Source: Lunasporangiospora selenospora (Eukaryota; Mortierellomycota; Mortierellomycetes; Mortierellales; Mortierellaceae). From it: a stretch of DNA of 60,428 bases. The notes beneath the pieces were generated by a model that was not told the DNA's origin, made no database searches, and saw only the letters and a program-made list of their open reading frames with translations. Where the stretch lies: the NCBI GenBank assembly GCA_015680635.1, contig JAABOA010000003.1, positions 1 to 60,428 of the forward strand. The letters run 5' to 3'. Of this stretch, positions 383 to 55,390 are shown one piece after another; within the stretch, counting starts at the first letter, position 1, and each line of letters begins with the position of its first letter. Position numbers and translations under genes: made by a program.

Positions 383-578
383 TTTATTTTTAGACGTAGA
401 CAAGGTCCATTGTTCTTTGAATAATTTACCATTTGAGCGACATTTTAAAATTGTTTTACTATAAGTATAAAATACCCCCCCTGCCTGTCGAGTAGAAGTA
501 AAATTATTAACTAATAAACCATCTTTGTGTATACAAAAATTGCGGCTCCTCGAGAAGGACTCATTTTTATTTTAGTTT

Positions 579-636
579 CAGCTCCCTTCGGGGGGGGCTA
601 CACCGAGGGAGCGACCCGCCCCCCCCCGGTAGCTGA
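579..636. repeat. GC cluster, family D
   Basis: Cluster starting CAGCTCCCTTCGGG, with a middle like CTACACCGAGGGAGCGACC and an end like CCGGTAGCTGA. Further copies are at 2229-2289, 3863-3913, 4571-4611 (inverted) and 56655-56707. All sit in or beside GIY-YIG remnants. Here it splits the C-terminal part of remnant 1. Confidence 0.8.
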
Positions 637-1113
637 AAGAGATTTGCCAAACATATGAATATTTTTTCCTTTATATTTTGCATAAGTTCCCTTAGACCGT
701 TTTTGACTTTTACGAATTTTACTAATTTTGGCTTTAGCTTCAGCAGAATGAGAACGACCTAGCATTCCTCGTGAATGATAATCCCAGTAACCCCATACAT
801 CAGTTTATTTATTTCTAACATCCTTATTCTTTTAACCAATTTTTATTCTTCCGGTTGTTTAGTACCTAAAGGGGAACCCGCAACTTTAAGAATGTTATAT
901 AGGGTTTTAGAGAATCTGCCCTCCGGGCGAATTCCCCCCTCCCCCTCTCTGTATCTGGTCAGTATATCCACGGGAGAATCTAAAAAATATTGTTCTTGTT
1001 CAAGAATCAATTTATATGCTTCATCCTTTGTTATATTACTAATATTAATTATTGAGATAATTGTAAGAGTAAATTTTGAATATCCATGATGAAGTAAAGC
1101 ATTACAGATATTT

Positions 1114-1164
1114 CCCCCCCCCCCGGCCGGGGGCCCCCGCCACGGGGCGGGCGGCCGGGGGGGG
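1114..1164. repeat. GC cluster, family B
   Basis: Long C run, then GGCCGG...CCACGGGGCGGGCGGCCGGGG. It separates the ALLHHGY-like coding segment of GIY-YIG remnant 1 from its N-terminal half. Confidence 0.7.
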
Positions 1165-1366
1165 TTTAATTACGATTTAAGTTACTCTTATTTAAATAAT
1201 TCTTTAATCGGTCAGATATATTAAGGGCAGAACTGATATCAGTTTTACCAGATTCATGAGTTTACTGATAAATACCACTTTTTAATTTATTATCAAATAA
1301 AATTTTAGATTTATTGGTTTCTACATCATTATATATAATTATTGGGACAAAACCCCTGTTATTATG

Positions 1367-1439
1367 AATCCCGGCCCGCTCCATATAGTTTATATATAAA
1401 TATTTAGAAGAAAGGCGGGACGGGCCTGGCGAATTATTA
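1367..1439. repeat. GC-bounded 73-bp element, copy 1
   Basis: An AT-rich middle (TTTATATATAAATAT...TTAGAAGAAA) lies between CCCGGCCCGC and GGCGGGACGGGCCTGGC. A second copy is at 57431-57500. The two ends can pair (GGCCCGC with GCGGGACGGGCC). Both copies lie upstream (minus strand) of a GIY-YIG N-terminus. Confidence 0.7.
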
Positions 1440-1545
1440 GAAGAATAATATCGAATTCCTTGTGTAATATAATTTCTGTCGCCCCTGAGATTTTCAAACT
1501 GTTAGAGCTCAGTTATAGTGGGTGTTAACTAATTTATAATGGTAT
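1437..1545 (-). pseudogene. Duplicated rps3 3' end
   Basis: The run AGAATAATATCGAATTCCTT and its extension at 1440-1471 match the sequence just below the rps3 stop codon (2421-2459). Homology continues more weakly into the last rps3 codons, including a GGGTGTTAACTAATTTA stretch matching GGGGGGTGTTTATTAATTTA. The two copies form direct repeats around GIY-YIG remnant 2. Confidence 0.75.
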
Positions 1546-2012
1546 ATTTACCCCTATCATTATGACTAGTAAATAGTCTAGTCCCTATTCCTTAGCAGAT
1601 AAAGTAAATATCACTTACCTAGGAATAATTTCTCACTTTTGATATCTCTAGAAATAGATATTATGCTACAATTAAATTGTTTTGCTGCTTCTGGACAAGA
1701 TACGAATTCATGCCCAAGAATTGTCGAAAAATTTGAATACACAAATACTCTTTTTCTTTGATGGGGGGATTCGCACCAAGTTTAGCAATACTCATTTTTG
1801 CTTGTCTCATCAGAGAGTGATTTACCAAATTTAATATGATTCTCCCCAGACATAGCTTTACTTTATTTTGCTATATGAACCTCTGACTGTTTAACCCATA
1901 AAGAAGAACCTGCTATTTTTAAGTATATTATATACAGATTTAAGCTCATCGAGATAAAATTCCTCTCGACTCAGTAGCTTCTCTGGCTCACAAAAAAAGA
2001 ATTTAATTAAAA

Positions 2013-2046
2013 TCCCCGGCCCCGCCCGTCCCCGTGTCGGGGGGCT
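2013..2046. repeat. GC cluster, family B
   Basis: CCCCGGCCCCGCCCGTCCCC followed by GTGTCGGGGGGC. It interrupts the coding part of GIY-YIG remnant 2. Confidence 0.65.
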
Positions 2047-2228
2047 AATTTGTATTTATTTATTGCTCTTTGTAGTAAAACATTAGAGTTAGATCCGTTA
2101 ACATAATTATTGAAACGAGAAGATAAAGTTTTTGAAGAACCTATGTATTATTTATTGTTAGTTTTACTAATAAACCCATAAATCCCTGATTTCATCCGTA
2201 ATTTACTTTTTAAATTTTTTTTGATTTT

Positions 2229-2289
2229 CAGCACCCTTCGGGGGGGGGGCTACCCCGAGGGAGCGACCCCCCCCGCCCCCGGGTAGCTA
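2229..2289. repeat. GC cluster, family D
   Basis: CAGCACCCTTCGGG start, CGAGGGAGCGACCCC middle, GGGTAGCTA end. It lies upstream (minus strand) of the GIY motif of remnant 2 and close to the rps3 3' end. Confidence 0.75.
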
Positions 2290-2460
2290 AATGTAAGTTC
2301 CCCATTAAGATTTCAAAGGTTGAAAAAAAGGAAGTAATCTAATCAATTTGACGTTTTTATAAATGATAGACGGGGAAAAATTAGCAAATACCTTGTTCCC
2401 TATAGAGTTCTTATTTTCGATATTAGTAGAATAATATCGAATTCCTTGTGTAATATAATT

Positions 2461-3369
2461 TTATTTTGAATAATCAGAGCTCTGAAGTAGGGGGGTGTTT
2501 ATTAATTTAGTACTTTTAACAGTACTATTATTATTAATAAACGAATTTGCAAAAGATGAAGAAAGCCAAATTTTAACTGTAATGCTACCATTCTTACCTG
2601 TAAAACTATACTTGCTAGCATCAATTAGAGTATTACTACTCAATCCAAGTGTTCCGATAGATCTTCTTACGACCCTAGTCCTGCTAGCGGCCTTACGTTG
2701 AGAAAGCCGTCCAGAGATCACGATTTTTATACCCGTTAAATATTGAGGTTGATTTATTACAGAAGAATATCTTATTAAATCTCTAAATTTACTAATAGTA
2801 GTATTATTACTCTCTATTAATTTCGCTTTTTTAAATAAAGTTCGCATTAATATATTGAAATTACCTTTTTTTATATTAAGTGCCAGATATTGTGCTAAAA
2901 TGTAAGAATTTAAATAAGGATAATGAATTCTTACAGGTTTTAATTCAACTGGTTTCCCATAAAATCTTGATAATTTTAATATTAACTTATTATATCCTTT
3001 AGCTTCAAAAGGTAATAAATTTTTATTATTGGTTGTTAAATCCCCTTGAATAATAGTTTGTATTCTTTTTGATTCTCCATTTGCATTGTATCGTTTTGAT
3101 ACTGGTATATTTAAAAAGTAATAAAAACTTATTACAACTTTATTTGAATTTTTATTAAATTTAGCTTTTGAAATTAAAGCAAATTGAAAATAATGTTTAA
3201 TTACATTTAAAGCTATTTTATCTACACCCCAATAATTATATAATTCACTCTTAGAGTTAAAATAATACGATGTTCCATTCCAATTACTAAGTGTTTTTAA
3301 CCGTAAGCTGATAGGATGTTTACTTCCCATTTTATATATATATTTCTCTTTAATCCTAAATTTGTCCAT
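2461..3369 (-). CDS. rps3: Ribosomal protein S3
   Basis: Small-subunit ribosomal protein encoded in the fungal mitochondrial genome. The frame opens at GTG (3381), but the first ATG, at 3369, gives 302 residues and is preferred. The C-terminal half has the fungal mitochondrial uS3 signature: GIKIVISGRL, then RTRVVRRSIGTLGLSS, then SKYSFTGKNGSITVKIWL. The N-terminal half is Asn- and Lys-rich, as usual for this fast-evolving protein. It is free-standing and not inside an rnl intron. The last codons run through an AAACACCCCCC tract (residues INTPLL) before TAA. Its 5' end is duplicated at 5040-5410 and its 3' end at 1437-1545, each next to a GIY-YIG remnant. Confidence 0.85.
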   Translation of the reverse strand: MDKFRIKEKYIYKMGSKHPISLRLKTLSNWNGTSYYFNSKSELYNYWGVDKIALNVIKHYFQFALISKAKFNKNSNKVVISFYYFLNIPVSKRYNANGESKRIQTIIQGDLTTNNKNLLPFEAKGYNKLILKLSRFYGKPVELKPVRIHYPYLNSYILAQYLALNIKKGNFNILMRTLFKKAKLIESNNTTISKFRDLIRYSSVINQPQYLTGIKIVISGRLSQRKAASRTRVVRRSIGTLGLSSNTLIDASKYSFTGKNGSITVKIWLSSSFANSFINNNSTVKSTKLINTPLLQSSDYSK

Positions 3370-3602
3370 AACAAGATACACTTGGGAATTGGGGGACCAA
3401 AACCAAGCAGCTTCTGACTCTAATAATTAAATAGAAGAATCAGACCTTTATCAATAAAAGAGAAAGGCAGGTTCGGCAAGCTTTTAAGATCTTATTAAAT
3501 AAAAATCTCAAAAAAGACCGGATTAGTTAAAACCCCCGCGTGTGAATGCGGGATTGAATCTTTTATATAAAATTTTGTTTAGTAATTTTCTTTTAGATAT
3601 AA

Positions 3603-3641
3603 CCCCCAGGGCCGCCCGCCCCTGTGACGGACCGGGCGGGC
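3603..3641. repeat. GC cluster, family B
   Basis: CCCCAGGGCCGCCCGCCCCT followed by GTGACGGACCGGGCGGGC. It lies in the region upstream of rps3. Confidence 0.65.
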
Positions 3642-3862
3642 TTATTTATATATCAAAAATTTGTATAAACCGGATAAATCTCACAATCTAAAAAGAAACT
3701 GATCCTAATAATAAACTATTAGTTAATTTTAAAAATTAAACCCAGAATATAGAGGATATCCTAGGGGGCCTTTTATTGGGAAGGTGGGTGTTCAGGGGTT
3801 TAAGCCATAATAATAAGTTATAATATATATACATCCCCCTACGGCTTCGCATCATTTTAGAC

Positions 3863-3913
3863 CAGCTCCCTTCGGGAGGGCTACACCGGGGAGCGACCCC
3901 CCCCGGGTACCTA
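3863..3913. repeat. GC cluster, family D
   Basis: CAGCTCCCTTCGGGAGGGCT start with a GGTACCTAAA end. It follows a short CCCCCTACGGCTTCGCAT cluster (about 3836-3853). Confidence 0.75.
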
Positions 3914-3948
3914 AAGAAAGACCTCCGTTGTTTATTGTAAAATCAAAA

Positions 3949-3997
3949 CCCCCCCGGCCGGCCCGTCACGGGGGGGGGGGGGACGGGCGGCCCCGGG
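3949..3997. repeat. GC cluster, family B
   Basis: CCCCCGGCCGGCCCGTCACG, a G run, then GACGGGCGGCCCCGGG. The arms GGCCGGCCCGTC and GACGGGCGGCC can fold back. Confidence 0.7.
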
Positions 3998-4570
3998 TAA
4001 TATAATAAAAGGAATGAATTAGAGCCATATAAATGTCTGCTAATGAGTGATAACCTCACTGATTATTCCTTAACGATTAAGGGTTCTGATAAAATCCATT
4101 GTGGCTCCGCCTTTAAATAATTCACCACTTATAGAATATCTTTTAATAGTAGAATGACAACAATTTAAAGATTCACCCGCTTTTCTAGCAGAACTAAAAC
4201 TATTAACAAGTGTGCCTTGAGAATCATAAACATAAATTATACCCCCCCTTTAACTACACTCATTTTAGTTTTTGTTCCCTCTGATTTAAGTTTTCTCACT
4301 TTAGCTTTAGTTTCTTCAGGGAGTAATTTCCCAAAATTGTAATGATTTTCACCAGAAATAGCAAGACTAATTTTTGCTTTAGTTTCTTCTGGATAAAGCC
4401 TACCTAGAGAAGAACGAGCCTCTTTAAGAATATTGCAAGTATTTGGTTTGGCCTTCGAAAAGATTATATCAAGATAAAACTCCGAGGGGGGGGGGGGTTT
4501 ACCCCCCCCTTCACTGTATCTGAAGACAGGGGGATAAAACTGCACACGTGAAAGAATCAATGTACGTGCT

Positions 4571-4611
4571 ACCCGGGGTCGCTCCCTCGGAGTAGCCCCC
4601 GAAGGGAGCTT
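4571..4611. repeat. GC cluster, family D (inverted)
   Basis: ACCCGGGGTCGCTCCCTCGG followed by AGTAGCCCCCGAAGGGAGCT. It splits the middle of GIY-YIG remnant 3. Confidence 0.75.
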
Positions 4612-4687
4612 CTTCCTTACTTAAATTTAAAATGTCAATAAGCTCAATTACAGATAAACTAAATGCTGAGTACCCTTGTTATAGAAG

Positions 4688-4734
4688 AGCTCCCCGACGG
4701 GGGGGCACCCGGCGGGCGAGCGCCCTTGGGAGCT
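4688..4734. repeat. GC cluster, family C
   Basis: A 47-bp cluster bounded by AGCT on both sides (AGCTCCCCGACGGGG start, CGCCCTTGGGAGCT end). Near-identical copies are at 14134-14180, 22291-22336 (inverted), 47252-47298 and 58376-58421, with a diverged one at 7163-7203. The near identity suggests recent spread. Here it separates the GIY domain of remnant 3 from the rest. Confidence 0.85.
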
Positions 4735-5039
4735 CTGCAAATCTAATTATCATCATTTCTTAAGTTCGAAGGAGAATAATAATTGTTTAATCGTGAAAAT
4801 AAATCAACTGCAGAACCAATGTAAAATTTTTCAGGTTTCTTATGTGCCCATTGAGATATACCAGCTTCCCCTCCCCCCCCCCCCGGGGGGGGGGTAAAGC
4901 CCCCCCCCCAGGGCTTCCCCTTTGTTATCCAATAATATCCGTGATTTGTCTGTTTCCGCATTATTATATCCCATTACAGGCATAAAACAATAAGTTAGAG
5001 TTGAATCAAAAGAATCAAAATAGATATTAATTGTAATAA

Positions 5040-5410
5040 ATATCAATGGAATTAAAGTGAATAGAAAATAATATTGTTCATTTTTAGAATTTAAATAATA
5101 AGAGGTATCCCCAATTTAGTTTTGTTTTTAATCGTAAACTGATAGGATGTTTTACACCCCCATTCCTTTATCTTTCTCTTTAATCCTAAATTTGCCCATA
5201 ACAAGATACACTTGGGATTTAACCTATTCCAAGCAGCTTCTGACTCTAATATTTTCGGGGGGGGGGGGCGGGGGGCCGGCCGTCCGCAATCAAGCGGGGC
5301 GGCGCGGGGACAATTTAAAAAATTTAGATATAATCAGACCTTTATCATATATTGACAAAGGCAGGTTCGGTAAGCTCTTAGATCTTATTATTTATAATCC
5401 CCATTAATGA
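5040..5410 (-). pseudogene. Duplicated rps3 5' region
   Basis: This copies the rps3 leader and roughly its first 50 codons (3240-3520). Shared stretches include the region around the start (CATAACAAGATACACTTGGG), the codons for PISLRLKT, and upstream blocks such as AAGCAGCTTCTGACTCTAAT and AAAGGCAGGTTCGG. A family B GC cluster (5257-5309) has entered the upstream part. The coding part is broken and runs straight into GIY-YIG remnant 3. Confidence 0.8.
5257..5309. repeat. GC cluster, family B
   Basis: G run, then GGGGGCCGGCCGTCCGC...GCGGGGCGGCGCGGGG. It is inserted in the duplicated rps3 leader and is absent from the real rps3 leader, so it arrived after the duplication. Confidence 0.7.
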
Positions 5411-5528
5411 CCGGATTCCCTAAAAATTTCATTATTTGAAGAAAAAGGTATCATTAAGATATAAGAAGGCAGAAGGAAGGTGTTAACGGAGCAATGTTAA
5501 CGATAAGTTATTATCTTTTTACAAAAAA

Positions 5529-5934: not shown

Positions 5935-6240
5935 TTAAATACGAACAATAAAAATTAGAAAAATGCCCGGCCCGTTCCGCTTTCTCTTCGCCCGGCCCCA
6001 CCCCGCTGGGGTACTCCTTTTCTTTTTGAAATGTTTATAAATAAACTGTAGGCGAGGCCCCTTGGGAGCATTATAAATAAGCATATGGATATAACGAGTT
6101 AAATGACTTATCGGGTAATAAAATCTAAATCGCTTAGATTTATCCATTACAGAACTAACCAATATTTTGTCTGATTCTGATATGCCCATTGATAGACTTC
6201 TGCTTTTAATTTTTTATTATCTAAATTGATTTATAAGAAT
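5935..6240 (-). pseudogene. GIY-YIG N-terminal fragment
   Basis: On the minus strand, KAEVYQWAYQNQ precedes a segment like DKILVSSVMDKSKRFRFYY and HMLIYNAP. This matches the cassette pattern AGIYQW...KIYVGSAxDLSKRLxxYY...YNAL. The GIY and YVG motifs have degenerated and a GC-rich tail follows. It is a short decayed fragment. Confidence 0.5.
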
Positions 6241-6737
6241 CCGCATTAGAATAAACTATTACAGGCCCCGTTAGGAGACTATTCTGGAAGGAAGAGGGAG
6301 GGGTAAATGACAAAAATATCTCATGATTTAGACATAATAATAGTTGAAATAACTCCGTTGGGGCCTTAATATTTATACTAATAATTACATATCATATAAT
6401 AAAGTACTAAATAGAAATATTAAAAAGCAATTCTATGTATTGAGATTGTTGATAAATAAGAGAAGCTAATGATGTTGCCATTACTAATATAAAAAGATTA
6501 ATAATTACATAAACCCCGTTAAGCTCCCATTTTCCCCCCCCCCACACTTTATAAGACCAAAGGTCGGTTAATTGGAAAAGGTTAATTAATAATAGGAATT
6601 AACTTAGTTATTTATAGCCCATCAGGGGGGGGGGGGAGTTTTATAAAAAAATGGTTCGGGTCTTTCTTTAAAGGTAAACAAAGAAACCATTCAGCAAGTT
6701 AGATACCCTTTATTTAGTTTTAAGATTTTTATAATTA
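6241..6737. other. Intergenic, no gene recognised
   Basis: AT-rich DNA with short G or C runs (6533-6542, 6625-6637). I saw no tRNA fold or conserved protein segment here. Confidence 0.5.
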
Positions 6738-8227: not shown

Positions 8228-8349
8228 TTTTCAAATAAGGGTGGTTGGGAGGGAAAATTTAAGTTTTATCTATAAAAATAAAACATAGCCGCGGTTTAGC
8301 TGGCAATAGCGTTTTATAAATAAAGAGGAATTTTATATAAAATATTACA

Positions 8350-11300
8350 ATGTATTTATCAATCATTTTAATACCATTATTAGGTTCAATAATTAGTGGA
8401 CTTTTCGGGCGAAAATTAGGAGCCCAAGGTAGCCAATTAATTACTACATTAGGGTTAATTATTACATGTATATTATCTCTAACAGCATTTGTAGAAGTTG
8501 GATTAAACCAATCTAATGTATCAGTAAATTTATTTTCTTGGATTGACTCTGAATATTTATTCGTATCATGGGGATTTTTATTTGATAGTTTAACAGTTTC
8601 AATGTTAATACCAGTTGTATTTATTTCTTCATTAGTACATATGTATTCAATTTCATACATGGGAGCTGATCCTGCCAAATATTTTGGGAAAATATTATTT
8701 GGGATAAAACTGCCAAACTCCGGGGACCCCTTAAAGCTTATGATACCAAGCCACGGCCGCAAGTCCGAAGGTGGATGGAGTAATGACCCATGTACGGTAA
8801 CAAGTCATAAGATAGACGAAAGAAAAATGGGCAATCGCGGATCTAAATCATCATTAAATTTTAATGGTGTAAAAGAGCAACGAGTATACGGTAGTTGGTG
8901 CATAGTTAAATATAATCCTATGCATTTTAGATGTACTCTAATGGGTTTCGAGAGAAACTATCAAGTCAAAATCCCTTCTAACCAATTAAATCGCAGAGAA
9001 TTTTCTACTTCTAAAGGTTCATCAAATCTAAACCCCTGGGTTTGGAGTGGTCTTATTGATGCTGAAGGTAGCTTCAGTCTTATAATAAGTAATAGTAAAA
9101 CACATAAAATAGGGTGGCGAGTTGAACCAAAATTCCAATTAGGTCTAGATAAACGAGATTTATCATTATTATTACAATTACAAGAATTTTTTGGTGGAAT
9201 CGGAACGAGATATACAAATTCCTCATCTGATATGTTAAATTATACAATTAACTCTAAAAAAGATTTAACAATACTAATAACTTTTTTAGAAAAATATCCA
9301 CTATTAACTCAAAAAGCTGCGGATTTTATTTTGTTTAAAGAAGCAATTAATTTAATGAATAATAAAGCTCATCTTTCGATAGAAGGGATTTATGAAATTC
9401 TTAATTTGAAAGCTTCAATGAATAAAGGTTTATCCGATTTTTAAAAATCTGAGTTTAAAAATTTTACTCCTGTTGAAAGAGAAATCATTAATACTGAAAA
9501 CATCCCTGATCCTAATTGGATTTCAGGATTTACTTCAGGTTCATCTGTCTAAATAGGGGGCCTGATAGATATGTTAATAATAACCTGAATTGATTAAAAG
9601 ATAGTTTAATACAAATCATGTCTTTATTGACATGATACCTAAAAAGTTCGAATCTAACATGTTAGCAATTTTTAAATTTATAGGTGCTGGTTCTGTTAAA
9701 GGAGCAGGTTTAGTAAATAGATCTTATAGTACTAAAAGATTAACTAATGTTGAGAGAAATTCTTTTACTGTTTCTCCGGATTTACATGAGGTAATAATTG
9801 GCTTATCTTTAGGAGATTTACATATTCGTAGAGATTATACAAATGCTTTATTACTATTTGAGCAAGGTTTAATTAATGAAGCATATTTATTACATTTATA
9901 CAATTTATTTAAAGATTATTGTGGTACAGGTCCTAAATACAGTGATCGAAAACCTGATTTTCGAACAGGGAAAATTTATTCTAGGGTTTCTTTTGCCACT
10001 TATTCTTTACCTTGTTTCAATTATTATCGTGATTTATTTTATGTAGATGGAGTAAAAATAATTCCTTTAAATATTGGTGAACTTTTAACTTCTAGATCTT
10101 TAGCTTATTGGTTAATGGATGATTCTTTTAAACACAGTACTAGTTTAAGCATTTGTACTGAATCTAATTCAGAACAAGAAGTATTATTACTTATATCTGT
10201 TTTAAAGGAGAAATTCAATATTAATTGTAATCCAATGAGACGAAATTCTAATAAATTAAGAATTTATGTAAAAACTAAATCCTTAAATGATTTAAGAAAT
10301 TTAGTTTCACCTTATTTTGTACCATCTATGATGTATAAAATTAGTAAGGATTAACATTGATAGTAACGAATAATCTATTTTAGGTGTAATAATTAATTCT
10401 TATTTTTATTAACACCCCCTATCAGGCCCCTATAAACTAGTCAATTTCGATATAAGAATTAGCCAATCAAGAAGTAAAACAGGTTTTCGAGTTCAATTAA
10501 GATTTAGAATTAATCAACATGATAGAGATAAAAAATTAATGGAAACTATCATAAAATATCTAGGTGCTGGAAAATTGTATAAGTATTCCGATAAAGCTGC
10601 TGTAGTAATAATGATTACTAAATTTTCGGATATCTCTAATATAATAATCCCTCTATTTAAGGAAAATCCTTTGCTTGGTGTAAAACAGCTTGATTATCTT
10701 GATTGGTGTAAAGTTGCTATGTTAATGATAGATAATTCTCATCTTACACCTGAAGGATTAAATTCCTAAATAATCACATTTAAATTTCTACTATATACAA
10801 TTAATTACATAAAATTCTATTAATCTGTATTAACTAACTTGTACTCTATCCATGAAAGATTGGAAATTTTATTTTAAAGTTAAAAGGCTGTAGGCTGAAT
10901 TATAGTTTACCACAACGGGGATGGGAAATACTTTCTTTATACTCGGGTGTCATGTGAGCACCAACGTGGGTATAGTTACTTAAAAAAAAGTTTGACAATT
11001 GCGCTTGCTAACATTTTTAAAACACTAAAAAAAACAATGACACGACTACAACCTTTTTTTACAACCATTGAAATCTCAGTGGGTTATTTACATTTAGCAG
11101 AAATTCAAAAAATTCTTAGAAAGGAGTTAAAAGGAAAATCCGGTATCTACGGATTCTTTTGCCAATCTAATAATAAATTATATGTAGGTTCTTCAAAAAC
11201 TTTAATTCTTCGTTTCAATGCTCATATTAAAGGGTCTAACTCGAATATTAAACTTCAAAATGCAATAAATAAGTATAATTTACATGATTTTATTTTTGTA

Positions 11301-14300
11301 ATTTTTGAATATTGTGATTCAAAAGATTTAATATCTCGAGAGCAATTCTATATAAATGAGCTTAAACCTGAATTTAATATACTTCTGACAGCAGGGAATA
11401 CACTTGGCTATAAACATACAGAGGAAACACTAACCAAAATGAGTCTAGCTAAGTTAGGTGAAAATCATCCAATGTTTGGTAAAACACATTCAGTAGAAAC
11501 AAAATCTGAAATGGCTTTTGCTAAAACCGGTGAAAATCATCCTATGTTTGGTAAAACACATTCAGTAGAAACAAAAACTAAAATGTCTATTGCTCAAACA
11601 GGAAAAACTCTTTCAAAAGAGATTAGAGCTAAAATGAGTGAAGCCCGTTTAGGGAAATCTCTTTCTACTCAGACTATAGCTAAAATTAGTGAAGCTTTAT
11701 CAGGAGAAAATAATCCTTTATATGGAAAAACTGGAGAGAATCATCCTATGTTTGGTCATATACATTCGACTGAAACTGTTGCGAAAATAAGTATAGCTAA
11801 GGGTGGAGGTACTATTTATGTATATGATACCCAAGGTTCTCTTGTAAATACTTTTAGTTCAGCAAGAAAAACAGGTGAATACTTTAATTGTTCATATCAT
11901 ACAATTATTAAATATGCGAAGAATTCTGATTTATTTAAAAATAATTGGATTCTATCTTATTCCGCAAATTTTTCAGATTGCATTAGCAAGAAATTTTCAG
12001 ATGATGAGAAATAAGTTATATAGTAAGAAAAATTTATACTTATTATAGTCAATAGACCATTCTTTCTATAATAGGTATAAATATTGTGATTATTAAATTT
12101 AATACGGGAAATAAAGTCTGGGATAAATAGAGGTAGAGATATTTCTAATATTTAATTGCATGATAAATTTGATTGCCATGCACACTCAGAGATTTTTTAG
12201 TTATTTATCAGCTTTTACTTTCTCTATGCTATTATTAGTATGTGGAGATAATTTATTAGTATTATTCGTAGGTTGAATTTCCCAGCCTAATTAATATTGT
12301 AAAATATTGAAAAAGTATATCACTATATGCTGGAACCCCCTTAGAACCTTAAGTACCACTGATTCTGTAAGTGGTAAAAATCTTAATGGATTGGATAATC
12401 AGCAGGAAACTTATTTGATTAAAATCTTATGGGATCCTCAGAGACTACACGTGATACTCCTTTATATTCATGAGGGATGAAGATATAGTCCTATCATAAA
12501 TGAAAATTAATGTAAGAAAATGTGGGTTATAAAATTTTTACCTTTTATAAATTTTTGGCACCATCCAAGATGGGCCCCATTGGAAAGATTTTTAATGTTA
12601 TTATTATGTATACAAACTCGAAATTATTCATCAAAAGAATCAACTAATCAAAATAATTCTTTACAAAATTCAGGTAAAAAACCTAAAAGTCCTAAAGATA
12701 ATAAAGAATATAAAAAGAATCTAAAATTATCTTCTTTTTTAAAAGAAGCTTTAATCGGATTAATTTTAGGGGATGTCTTTGTTTCTAAGTATGGACGTTA
12801 TAAAAATGCTAGATTAGTTTTTGATCAATCAAAAGATAAACATTCAGATTATCTTTATTATTTATATAGTTTATTTGAACCTTTTGTTGGTGCAGAACCT
12901 AAATCAACTAATCGTAAACCCAATGCCCGAAGAGCATTGGGGTTAGTTTATAATAGCTTAATTTTTAGAACATTTAGTTTATCTTGTTTTAATGAATATC
13001 ATTCCATGTTTTATCCAAATGGTAAAAAAATTATTCCATTAAATATAGAAGAATATTTAACAGAAATAGGTTTAGCCTTTTGGGTTATGGATGATGGAGG
13101 TAAAAATACACACGGTGATTTAATACTTCATACAAATAGTTATACTAAAGAAGAAGTAGAATTATTAATTTCAGTTTTAAATAATAAATTTAATTTATCT
13201 TCTAAAATTTATAAAAGAAGTACAAGTCAATGGGCTATTTTAATTCCTAAAAAAGAATTATCTAAAGTTAGAAAATTAGTTTCTAATTATATACATTCTT
13301 CTATGGAATATAAAATTAAAGAATAAATATTGTTATTCAACCCTTTTCCTATTTTTTTATGCATCTGTGGGAAGGTGAACAAAATTGCCTTAAATGGTGT
13401 AATATAGAAAATTTTATAATTTTATCTAATCAATTACCTATAATAGGAAAAACTATTGATAAAAATCTTAATAATTCTTCTAATAACAATATAATTCCTT
13501 TTAAAAATGGTCCTCATAATATTGACGTAGTTTCAATTATTATAGGTTCTACTCTAGGGGACACTCATTTAGAAAAACGGTCCAATGGGATTGGTACTAG
13601 AATTAAATTTATACAAAGTAATAAAAATGTAGAATATTTAATGTGGTATCATAAATTTTTCTCTGATAGAGGATATTGTAATTCTAAAATTCCACAATTA
13701 AAAACACGAATACGTAAAAATGGAGAAAATACTTTTGAATATAGTATTAATTCATATACTTATGCAAGTTTTAATTGGATTCATGAAATGTTTTATTCTT
13801 TTGATGAAGAACAAAAAAGATATATAAAAATATTGCCAAAAAATTTAGAAGAGTTTCTAACACCACAAGCATTAGCTGTATGGTTTATGGATGATGGTTC
13901 TAAATTACGTGATTCTGCAAGAATTGCTACAAATAATTTTACTAAAGAAGAAATTGAAAAATTATGTTTAATATTAGAAAATAAATATAAAATAAAAGCT
14001 TCTGTTCATTCTAGTGGTAAAACTAAAGGGCATATTTTATATATTTATAAAAATTCTATGGAGAATTTTTCTAAGATTGTGAAACCATTCATGGTTCCTT
14101 CATTATATTATAAATTAGGAAATTATTAATATTAGCTCCCCGACGGGGGGGCACCCGGCGGGCGAGCGCCCTTGGGAGCTTAAATATTTATTAAATTAGT
14201 ATTACATCATAGTAAAACAATATAAACTCATAGACAATTGTAATGAAGAATATTGAGGAAACTTATATAATAAAAATTAATTAAAATTATTTATTAATTT

Positions 14301-20161: not shown

Positions 20162-20232
20162 AAGACAATAGCTTAACGTAAAGCTTTCTGCTCATAACGG
20201 AACTGATGGAAGTTCGACTCTTCCTTGTCTTA
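20162..20232 (+). tRNA. trnM: tRNA-Met (anticodon CAT)
   Basis: Acceptor AAGACAA/TTGTCTT, anticodon stem TTCTG/CGGAA with loop CTCATAA (CAT), T arm GGAAG-TTCGACT-CTTCC. Its 3' half lies in the right arm of the long inverted repeat. Confidence 0.9.
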
Positions 20233-20291
20233 ACTAATTTTTTACCTTTATATTTAGGTAATATTATTTTATATAATATACAGATCTGTAT
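20198..20291. repeat. Right arm of long inverted repeat (with 1-93)
   Basis: It pairs with 1-93 at a handful of mismatches and ends in TATACAGATCTGTATA. It includes the 3' half of trnM. Confidence 0.85.
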
Positions 20292-20691
20292 ACTATTAAA
20301 TTCTTTAATTTTTTTTAATTAAGTTGAATATTTCGTAATTTTTTTATTTAAACCAATAAAAAGACTTAATTATTTTTTATAGTAAATTAAAGTGCTTATT
20401 TAGTTAAAAATTAAACCCATTATATTCTATATAAGTGAGGAAGCTAAAATAGCTCTAAATTAAAAACTAATTTATTTTGTTATTTTTCATGGGATTTATT
20501 ATTTAAAAAGTTTTCTTCTTCTAGGGGGAAGAAATACTTTAGTGCCTAATAAAAAGATAGATGTAAATAACAAAAATATTATATTTCTGTAAAGAAATAT
20601 ACCTTTTTCATTTTGTCTTAATAAAGCATTATTAATTTTGATTTTATAGTGATGGAAGATTGAGGGATATAAAAAAAATATAAAAAATATT

Positions 20692-43147: not shown

Positions 43148-43154
43148 TTGTATT

Positions 43155-43345
43155 AAAAGTGGCTGTATCCGATTCATATTATATAAATGATTAAATTTCA
43201 TTTTTTGTACAAAATTTTTAATTTTAATAATGTTAAAAATACTTTTCAATTTTAATATTACTTTTTGTGATATATTAATACCTTGGCGATTTTCTATCCA
43301 AGATGGAGCATTACCATTTTTTGATGGGATTATTAATCTTGATGC
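43155..43345 (+). pseudogene. Duplicated cox2 leader and N-terminus
   Basis: The leader (43155-43229) and first 38 codons (MLKILFNFNITFCDILIPWR) repeat 41750-41950 with scattered changes; about two thirds of the residues match. After IINLDAELLKFY the frame leaves cox2 and enters a LAGLIDADG gene. The copy cannot give a working cox2. Confidence 0.85.
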
Positions 43346-44253
43346 CGAATTATTAAAATTTTATGCTTCTGTTCCTTTAATTATTCACTATTCAAAAGAT
43401 CGTGAAAAATCTTTTACTATAGACAAACCTCTAATTCCTAATAATTTCTCTCCTTGGTTCATAACTGGTTATTCAGATGCTGAAGCATGTTTTGATTCTA
43501 ATATATTGAAATCTAAAACAACAACTACAGGATTTAGTGTTATACCTCGATTTAGAATTACTGCTCATAAACGAGATATAATTTTTCTATATACGATTAA
43601 AGAGTATTTCGGTTGTGGTAGCATAGGGGAATAGACGCTAAGGATTGTTTAGAATATACGGTAGCTGATCAAAGTAGTATCTTTAATATAATTATCCCTT
43701 TTTAATAAATATCCATTAAGAGGTACTAAACAATTAGAGGTACTAAACATTAGATTACTTGAATTGGGTTAAAGGATTACAAATTATTAAAAATAAAGGA
43801 CATTTAACTATTGAGGGTTTTAATGAGATCAATTTTATTAAATCTTCTTCTAATACAGGACGATTAACTAATAATAGTACTAATCTACACTGTAATCCTA
43901 ACGGTGCCGGGTATTTTCCTTTAGACCCTAATTCTATTAGCGGTTTTCTTACAGGTGATGGTAATTTATCTTTAATTACTAAAATAGATTCTCCAAGTTT
44001 TGGTAGAATGAGAATCGGGTTAACACAACAACAAGATAATTACTTATTATTACAATCAATTAAAGATTACTTTAATATTGATAATTTTGTTATTTCAAAA
44101 GTTAATGATAAAGCAATTTCATTAAATTGTGGTTCTGAAGATTCTATCTATAACATTCTTCTTCCTTTCTTTGAGAAATATCCTATTTATGGAATTAAAG
44201 CTATTACATTAGTAAAACTTCTTAAGATTCGGGATTTAATTTTAAAGGAGTAG
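43230..44253 (+). pseudogene. cox2 N-terminus fused to LAGLIDADG endonuclease, broken
   Basis: The frame starts in the duplicated cox2 N-terminus. The first motif is SPWFITGYSDAEACF, then RFRITAHKRDIIFLYTIKEY. A shift at about 43630, and further breaks to 43760, interrupt the middle, including a short duplication (GAGGTACTAAACA twice at 43716-43750). It resumes with GHLTIEGFNEINFIKSS, the second motif NSISGFLTGDGNLSLI, and ends ITLVKLLKIRDLILKE. LAGLIDADG_1 type, with both motifs keeping the acidic residue. Related in order to the nad5 intron 1 resident gene, but it is not in an intron here. Confidence 0.8.
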
Positions 44254-47298: not shown

Positions 47299-47672
47299 AG
47301 GGATAAAGGATAATAATAGTATATCAGATATTAAGATTGAGAAAAATATTCTAGGTCTACGAATTAAAATTTTATATGAATATTATATTACCAAATATAA
47401 TAAAATTAATAATTGTTGATCCTAACATTATTCGTTTGATTCATTATTTACAAAAAGTAAAGATTGCACTAACTAAAGATATAAATAATAATTCTGTAAG
47501 CATATTTATATAAAATGCCTTTAAGGTAATATAAATTTATAATTTTCATTTAATTTTTTAATAAAATTCTAAACTTTATAAATAAAATTCTAAACTTTAG
47601 AAATTTTATATAAACCTTTAGCTCCCAGGGGGGAGGGGGGAGCTAATACTTGAAATAAATTAATAAAAACCG

Positions 47673-53670: not shown

Positions 53671-54390
53671 TTAAGCTTGTAATTTATACACCATAGATTC
53701 ATGAAAATACGGAGAAACAAGAGATCGAAATTTATCCATTGAATCTAACATAATGTAAATTCGATATTGAGATTTTATTTTGTGATAAGAACAATTTAAA
53801 TAAAAATTTTCCTTTAAAACTTTAATCAATAATTCTACTTCACTTAAAGAATAACTATCTGTACATAATATAATACTCTTATTTTTTTTACTTCCATCAT
53901 CCATAGTCCAATATGCTAAACCTAAAGGTGTTAAGAATTCACCAATATTTAAAGGAATTGTTTTAACACCATCTACATAAAATAAATTATAATAAAAATT
54001 AAAACAAGGTAGAGAATAAGTAGCAAAATAAACTGAAGTATATACTTTGTTAGTAATTTTATTAGAATAATTATAATGTTTAGGTTTATCCATATTAGAA
54101 TAACTAGAAAATAACTCAAATAGATGATAAATATAATCCTTATGTACTAATCCTTGAGAAAATTTTAATCTAGCATTATTCCCTTTTTTTGTTAATATTT
54201 AAATCCCCTAACAGACTACCTATCAATATGCTATGTAAATCCGGAGTAATAGAAAAAGAATCTCTTTGAGCATTAGTTAATTTTTTAGAACTATAATATC
54301 TAAAAATCAAACCTGTCCCTTTAACAAAACCTGCACCTTTAACAGAACCTGCTCCAATATATATATTAGACTTGAAGATACTTTATAAAA
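53671..54390 (-). pseudogene. LAGLIDADG remnant, relative of the nested unit
   Basis: The C-terminal 140 residues are open ([34 protein letters not shown] with the second motif, FHESMVYKLQA at the end). Upstream on the same strand, KKLTNAQRDSFSITPDLHS and [14 protein letters not shown] (first motif) lie in another frame, separated by a shift in an A run at about 54185-54192. The leader GAATTGATTAAAAGATAGTT matches the unit at 9555-10431. It is inserted at the C-terminal end of a GIY-YIG remnant. Confidence 0.8.
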
Positions 54391-54467
54391 TTATTATATC
54401 ATGTCAATTAAGACTTAATTGTATTAAACTATCTTTTAATCAATTCTTGTTATTTAACTAAAATCGG

Positions 54468-55221
54468 TTATAGCCTTTTTAGTGTGGTACAATCAAAGAA
54501 ATTAGCAGCATCTATACAAGAATTAAAAAATTTATATAAAATTAGATCCTTCGAGTCAGAATCTAAAGTATAAACAAATACCCCGGGTATTTTATTTTTT
54601 GCTAAAGACATTAAAGCTTTAGTCTCAGCAGAAACACATTTACCTTTATGGACTTTACCTATTAAGGCCTTAGTTTCAGCAGAATGAGTTTTACCTGTCA
54701 TAGCATTACTAATTTTAGCAATAGTCTCAGGTAAACGAGATTTCCCAAATAAAGGATGATTTTTTCCACTAAATTTTGCTAAAGCTTCTTCAGTATGTTT
54801 ATAACCTATCGGAGAACCAGCTACCTGCAGTATATTCTAAGTATTAGGTTTATCTAACGAAAAGATAATATCCAGAAAAAATTGTTCTGATTGTAGAATT
54901 AATTTTTGTGCTTCTTTTTTATCTAAATTAAAAATGTCAGTATATTTTAGAATCGATAAACTAAAAGCAGAATGAGTGATGAAGAAGTGCTCTGCAAATA
55001 TAGTAGTTATCTTTTTTTAATGATGAAACTGAATAATATAGAGATAGTCGTTTCGATAAATCAAAGGCAGAACCAACGTAAATTCTATCAGTTTCAATAT
55101 GGGTCCACATATACACACCAGCCTTACCTTTATTATCTAATAAAATTTAATTTTTCTCAGAATCGGCATTATGATATATTATAACCGGTGTAAAAGATAC
55201 ATTGTTATTTGTATTATTCAT
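54468..55221 (-). pseudogene. GIY-YIG remnant behind a copied nad4L leader
   Basis: ATG at 55221 (minus). It reads NNTNNNVSFTPVIIYHNADS, a TAA, then LLDNKGKAGVYMWTHIETDR and IYVGSAFDLSKRLSLYY, with GIY and YVG motifs intact. After shifts it continues QVAGSPIGYKHTEEALAKFS, TGKTHSAETKALIGKVHKGK and VFVYTLDSDSKDLILYKFFN, ending FFDCTTLKRL where the LAGLIDADG unit begins. The 170 bases above its ATG copy the nad4L leader, with the ATG in the same position. Few breaks, so decay is recent. Confidence 0.8.
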
Positions 55222-55390
55222 ATTTTTTGTATTTTATAATTGTTATTTGTTCCCAGAATGATATAAAATCACCCATCGACTAATATAATGTTTTGATGGT
55301 ATACTTATTTGTTTGACACACTTTTTGTGTTATAAGACTTGAACTTTAATAATGATCTATTATGAGTAAAGAGCTTTATGAATAATTCTT
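55222..55390 (-). repeat. Inverted copy of nad4L leader
   Basis: On the minus strand GTTCAAGTCTTATAA, AAAAAGTGTGTCAAACAAAT, AAGTATAC and GGGAACAAATAACAATTATA line up with 7525-7661. The spacing to ATG is the same within a few bases. Confidence 0.85.

Follow-up and report, generated by a model that had tools for sequence, protein, structure and literature searches.

Gene hybrids with mobile open reading frames (ORFs) have been described for atp6, atp9, cox2 and nad3 of Glomus sp., atp6 of Allomyces macrogynus, atp9 of R. oryzae and cox2 of M. verticillata (Beaudet et al. 2013, PMC3630166). In the portion of that paper available to us, an endonuclease ORF stands behind the gene and a second gene end lies beyond it; the ends are of different lineage and the fusion is sometimes in frame. 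In the available parts of two papers on Ophiostoma (PMC7902536, PMC12308204) the C-terminus of rps3 is in frame with a homing endonuclease, and the corresponding part of a study on Tremella fuciformis (PMC7315562) describes 'N-terminal duplication' introns, endonuclease elements with partial host-gene copies that are able to exchange gene fragments. The rps3 locus of Lunasporangiospora selenospora resembles each of these systems. It lies in a stretch of 60,428 nucleotides (contig JAABOA010000003.1, here C3), which we analysed as a whole and call the window.

With moderate confidence we favour the reading that homing endonuclease genes, which have since died, struck both ends of rps3, the 5' case belonging to a wider habit of free-standing endonucleases of carrying host leaders. 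This reading draws on copied gene ends, on the register of copies at the ATG, on the association of 5' copies with endonucleases and, in relatives, on in-frame rps3 fusions and endonucleases with rps3 N-termini.

Layout of the locus and the 3' side of rps3

The rps3 gene has been kept whole as a complete open frame (Table 1) and is the sole match to PF05316 in the whole assembly. Its relatives comprise 43 proteins, that of Entomortierella parvispora, the nearest named one, being 61% identical (proteins are cited below by P numbers, contigs by C numbers). No rps3 relative was confirmed in DNA among the 31, 339 and 209 stretches of two viral-contig scans and one genome-contig scan; the GIY-YIG protein P0045, used as query, found distant GIY-YIG matches at 51 viral-contig loci. 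Blastn, Pfam and tblastn bear out the order that an earlier note had read on the minus strand: a duplicated rps3 5' end, GIY-YIG remnant 3, rps3 itself, remnant 2, a copy of the 3' end, and remnant 1. An intact reading frame is absent from all three remnants, in which tblastn revealed internal stops or frame breaks. Pfam recognized GIY-YIG and NUMOD3 domains in remnant 2 and NUMOD3 in remnant 3, while remnant 1 was detected by tblastn only. The idea that the three are copies of one another was rejected, since the closest DNA match of each lies outside the trio: remnant 1 at C357:956-779, remnant 2 at C3:33534-33780 and C3:11136-11278, and remnant 3 at C317:7616-7524. One 87-nt stretch, shared by remnants 2 and 3, is the only link among them. 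They are independent arrivals.

A 41-nt linker, whose first base is also the final A of the rps3 TAA, reads NYITQGIRYYS(T/S)N in the rps3 frame and runs into remnant 2. About 1 kb beyond, some 48 nt from the end of rps3 precede another copy of the linker, which is followed by remnant 1. The local alignment score of these ~48 nt (37) was reached by none of 2000 shuffles and none of 532 genomic stretches. The two linkers (2461-2421 and 1475-1435) are identical at 40 of 41 positions, while their surroundings are far less alike. In P0003, P0014 and P0029 the linker joins rps3 in frame, without a stop, to the start of a GIY-YIG domain, and the strongest 3' repeat is thus part of the endonuclease side of a fusion; in P0005, P0013 and P0015 the linker is present and the protein ends before any endonuclease. 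The earlier note had placed each inner cassette between repeats of a gene end. Partial copies do lie beyond both cassettes, but the strongest repeat on the 3' side is this linker and not the end of rps3. If the neighbourhood has decayed to ~72% identity, an assumed value, the chance of 40 identities in 41 is ~2e-5; the linker repeat may therefore have been converted recently or retained for a reason, a putative cleavage site being among the options.

The 3' side fits stacked in-frame invasions of the known mobile-ORF hybrid kind: an endonuclease ORF lies directly behind the gene (remnant 2, 2192-1623) and a second gene end lies past it (1536-1430). The short linker would have connected GIY-YIG genes in frame with the end of rps3, and a second invasion, arriving with an rps3 end and a linker of its own, may have displaced the older end and its endonuclease downstream, so that two end-plus-endonuclease units came to stand in tandem. 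Comparable arrangements are found behind atp9, where a GIY-YIG frame is followed by 85 bp of repeated atp9 end (94%) and then by another GIY-YIG remnant, and behind atp6, where a LAGLIDADG gene precedes 46 bp of repeated atp6 end (89%) and another LAGLIDADG copy.

Two further observations concern gene ends and junctions. The 3' part of nad1 (150 bp) recurs at 36913-36765 on the minus strand with 89% identity, including an identical stretch of 57 nt; one weak match to a GIY-YIG C-terminus (E 0.006) lies between the gene and this copy. In fusions of the LAGLIDADG as well as the GIY-YIG type, a motif R-x-(Y/F)-S-(T/N/S) marks junctions at which the host-derived peptide gives way to the endonuclease (2449-2421, 1463-1435, 9605-10354, 8341-9444 and 12511-13323 in the window; P0042, P0044, P0003, P0014 and P0029). 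It occurs at the junctions of 4 of the 30 own reading frames listed and has no match in 2579 host-protein residues. The motif resembles the R-3 type of site recognized by the mitochondrial processing peptidase, and would be a putative site of cutting.

Host 5' leaders ahead of endonucleases

The repeat of the rps3 5' end extends over ~360 bp, in register from -202 to +96, and more than half of it lies upstream of the ATG. Blastn aligned it in two matches separated by a GC cluster, 5425-5332 with 3532-3438 (78% over 95 positions, E 4e-15) and 5254-5067 with 3428-3234 (78% over 197 positions, E 7e-38). The frame of the copy breaks just past the start. Repeat sizes of about 110 and 280 bp had been proposed; the value was roughly correct on the 3' side and too small on the 5' side. 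Here leader and start are duplicated, and not the carboxy terminus as in the hybrids of Beaudet et al.

We compared 30 residues of the copy, with three informative sites, to 36 of 46 proteins, the other 10 having fewer than 28 aligned positions. The copy shares 25 of the 30 residues with each of P0004, P0010, P0014 and P0019 and 22 with the rps3 of its own genome; 8 of the 36 relatives are closer to it than that rps3 is. The copy thus looks older than, or foreign to, the neighbouring gene, a weak signal on three sites. It is the copy and not the gene that looks foreign, because the real N-terminus, with NSKSEL common to 3 of the 36 relatives, goes with the rps3 body, for which P0001 is likewise the best match. 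Since the copy is the odd one, this lineage signal weakly favours capture of the leader or its arrival with the cassette.

Three relatives are uninterrupted endonucleases carrying rps3 N-termini. P0042 and P0044 (253 and 254 residues) follow rps3 to about codon 36, then read R-S-Y-S-N and continue into a LAGLIDADG_2 domain. The window's LAGLIDADG frame at 9605-10354, with its atp9-like N-terminus, has 100 of 214 and 100 of 218 aligned residues in common with the endonuclease parts of the two, so that a single LAGLIDADG type follows N-termini from different host genes. P0045, of 277 residues, matches the rps3 start over its first 19 residues (score 62, reached by none of 1000 shuffles; control P0046, score 21), and what follows is 78% identical to the linker and GIY-YIG start of P0003. 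One endonuclease type thus stands behind the rps3 end in P0003 and behind the rps3 start in P0045.

The window is fungal mitochondrial DNA. It bears rps3, nad1, nad4, nad4L, nad5, nad6, cob, cox2 and cox3, named by reading translations and, for rps3 and part of nad5, additionally by Pfam; cox1, nad2, nad3, atp6 and atp9 lie on four further contigs. An end of C357 and an end of C74 are identical over 55 bases, as expected if both belong to one genome. The five contigs sum to ~133 kb. Within them, off-locus matches numbered 25 for 14 windows at gene 5' ends (2588 unmasked bases), 6 for 12 windows at 3' ends (2116) and 4 for 36 windows from gene interiors (7089), 2 of these last being repeats within nad2. 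One of the 25 five-prime matches is a cob row. The candidate cob leader at C3:12146 was rejected, the assigned cob start being the start of exon 2 and the match preceding a nad5 exon; cob was accordingly removed from the count of places. With wider windows, copies of 5' ends were merged into 21 places representing 9 of the 13 genes tested. At 12 of the 21 an endonuclease lies on the same strand within 300 bp downstream. When endonuclease positions, from a list extended by tblastn, were shifted circularly 5000 times, the mean was 2.2 and the maximum 10, so that no shift reached 12. Within 600 bp the count was 13 of 21, attained by 1 shift in 5000.

The host ATG aligns exactly with an ATG on the endonuclease side at nad4L copies (C74:24940, C3:55221) and at copies of atp6 (C74:12985), cox1 (C74:17088) and cox2 (C3:43230); the nad4L register is also found at C74:26475, in a broken frame. 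Behind the atp6 and cox1 leaders on C74 the GIY-YIG frames are open over more than 300 codons. Between the nad4 copy and nad4 we recognized by eye a GIY-YIG-like YSNAETNKLQI and NUMOD3-like repeats, and tblastn gave one weak match containing NUMOD3 (E 0.003). The earlier proposal that insertion simply copied the gene boundary is not upheld: the rps3 5' copy seems older or foreign, the longest-conserved 3' repeat is an endonuclease linker, and 5' copies elsewhere lie far from their parents.

Table 1. Features of the rps3 locus and of leader-plus-endonuclease units in the window (positions in nucleotides of the window)
Feature	Position	Strand	Description
rps3 (VAR1/S3 family)	2461..3330	-	289 codons plus stop, open; PF05316 E 2.4e-41; start MGSKH common to relatives
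Linker NYITQGIRYYSTN	2421..2461	-	41 nt; rps3 frame, directly past stop
GIY-YIG remnant 2 (KSGIYGF type)	1623..2420	-	Broken frame; PF01541 2189-2067, NUMOD3 1892-1797, tblastn 2192-1623
rps3 3'-end copy	1430..1536	-	~48 nt of rps3, 14-nt insertion, 41-nt linker; alignment
GIY-YIG remnant 1	392..1363	-	Broken frame; no Pfam GIY-YIG match; tblastn with P0045 and P0046
rps3 5'-end copy	5067..5425	-	~200 nt before ATG and ~32 codons; broken frame; internal GC cluster; blastn
GIY-YIG remnant 3	4112..5028	-	GIY-YIG, NUMOD3 and C-terminal pieces; broken frame; tblastn with P0045 (five pieces), NUMOD3 by Pfam
nad2 5' coding-end copy (+25 to +117)	6396..6486	-	85% over 93 positions
GIY-YIG remnant behind nad2 copy	6058..6265	-	tblastn
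nad4 5'-end copy (-52 to +110)	47402..47555	-	71%, E 5e-18; ~1 kb upstream of nad4
nad4L 5' leader copy (-112 to +3)	55218..55335	-	77%; ATG in register
GIY-YIG remnant from copied nad4L ATG	54486..55221	-	One stop within first 25 codons
cox2 5'-end copy (-79 to +124)	43152..43353	+	82%; ATG 43230 in register
LAGLIDADG frame fused to copied cox2 N-terminus	43230..44229	+	PF00961; stops further in
Partial atp9 leader copy (-83 to -40)	9574..9614	+	89%
LAGLIDADG_2 frame with atp9-like N-terminus (by eye)	9605..10354	+	PF03161 E 9e-42; NRSYSTKR junction
atp9 leader copy (-93 to -2)	54382..54472	-	83%; ahead of LAGLIDADG_2 frame 54192-53728 (PF03161)

Other features of the window accompany these units. 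Between nad5 exons at 9043-13263, several LAGLIDADG and GIY-YIG frames are stacked, one of which starts like atp9. A broken atp6 copy at 51108-50728 on the minus strand retains the start (leader and ~44 nt) and a later part, the middle apparently missing. Families of GC-rich clusters occur at many places (for example 4688-4734), and one 47-nt type has identical or near-identical copies on several contigs. An inverted repeat joins 1-111 with 20181-20292 (92% identical); a tRNA-Met gene overlaps its second copy.

Leader capture and its alternatives

Translation in fungal mitochondria is considered to rely on leaders particular to each gene. How homing endonucleases outside introns are expressed in these mitochondria is not obvious, and captured leaders are a possible answer. 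On the favoured reading, free-standing homing endonucleases would carry a host 5' leader, with or without first codons, which would supply ribosome loading and a start codon; such units may move together with their leaders. At rps3, a GIY-YIG gene stands behind the copied leader and first codons, and we take this 5' copy to be a leader that remnant 3 captured. P0003 and P0045 together suggest a route to units of the latter kind, by fusion at the rps3 end, duplication and loss of the rps3 core. A broader proposal, which we hold tentatively, is that homing endonucleases may live as free genes on seized host leaders, related ones wearing different leaders and the choice of leader being separate from the landing site. 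The endonuclease would then start at the captured host ATG or a few host codons later. Related endonucleases do have an atp9 leader here and an rps3 one in relatives, and nad4L leaders are found with endonucleases sited behind atp6.

Several points weigh against leader capture. At rps3 an insertion at the 5' end explains the copy equally well, since the copy adjoins its parent. The ATG register is broken or not demonstrated at rps3, nad6 and one atp9 unit: the nad6 copy stops 28 nt short of the ATG, and the atp9 leader copies end before it or are shifted. P0042, P0044 and P0045 may represent intron-encoded frames joined to the first exon of a gene. The 21 places are not independent, two nad4L units on C74 being copies of each other (74%). 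Moreover, 9 of the 21 have no endonuclease within 300 bp: atp6 C3:51039, atp9 C3:9574, cox1 C3:29240 and C74:8663, nad4 C3:47402, cox2 C3:35793-35823, and nad2 C3:32066, C3:35162 and C317:1665-1752. The cox2 place proved to be a tRNA likeness only, and translation of the nad2 place at C317:1665-1752 revealed no endonuclease. The atp9 place was scored in this way because two endonucleases had been merged into one cluster, and the nad4 place was missed since the nad4 remnant was outside the endonuclease list.

A mirror image of the published hybrids would make leader capture unnecessary. A cut near the rps3 5' end would have been repaired from a donor, inserting an endonuclease together with the donor 5' end, displacing the old 5' end upstream and leaving a hybrid rps3. 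The endonuclease and copy directly upstream of their parent at rps3 and nad4 speak for it, as do two rps3 5' ends of seemingly different lineages (25 of 30 residues shared with four relatives, 22 with the own genome). The lineage signal nevertheless runs in the opposite direction, as the real N-terminus fits the rps3 body and the copy looks foreign, and the leader units of nad4L, atp6, atp9, nad6 and nad2 lie far from their parents. We consider this explanation rather unlikely.

We find it improbable that tandem duplication and deletion by recombination produced the copies, with endonucleases as bystanders because they are common. The genome is certainly rich in repeats, with 513 masked self-matches and many GC clusters and dispersed repeats, and dense in homing endonucleases, with 58 clusters on ~133 kb. 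Yet shifted positions never gave more than 10 places against the 12 observed, and copies of 5' ends greatly outnumber those of gene interiors. Least credible of all is that group I introns carrying in-frame endonucleases left these remains, and that the copies are first exons of intron-bearing gene copies: such introns are frequent here (7 matches at gathering score) and P0042 and P0044 break at the identical rps3 point near codon 36, but none of the 7 matches is near the rps3 cassettes or below 16 kb (weaker cores were not sought), the copies take in the leader before the ATG, and the real rps3 beyond remnant 3 comes with a leader and ATG of its own.

Comparison with described systems

If leader capture is correct, each leader-endonuclease unit would amount to a leader-swap experiment done by nature, and the copied 5' ends would offer a testable route for duplication of gene starts, perhaps for their exchange between species. 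Annotators and phylogeneticists would also have reason for caution, as partial gene starts in such genomes would belong to mobile elements.

In the parts of the literature examined we found no description of 5' leader copies ahead of endonucleases. The hybrids of PMC3630166 are, in the portion available, carboxy-terminal, whereas here we also find 5' copies, two tandem end-plus-endonuclease units, and 5' leaders away from their parents. In Ophiostoma, as far as the available text goes, rps3 sits inside an rnl intron with a LAGLIDADG partner (PMC7902536, PMC12308204), in contrast to the free-standing rps3 and GIY-YIG partner described here. In the Tremella fuciformis introns the exon copy comes after the element and its length is set by the distance of the insertion site; copies of leader and start codon ahead of the endonuclease are not described in the part seen (PMC7315562). 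In one published case an atp9 copy lacks a stop and continues into a reading frame unrelated to it, a likeness to the fusions reported here, but in the available account this copy is full-length and no endonuclease is named as partner. The 3' layout at rps3 is of an already published kind, and the 5' side is the less ordinary of the two.

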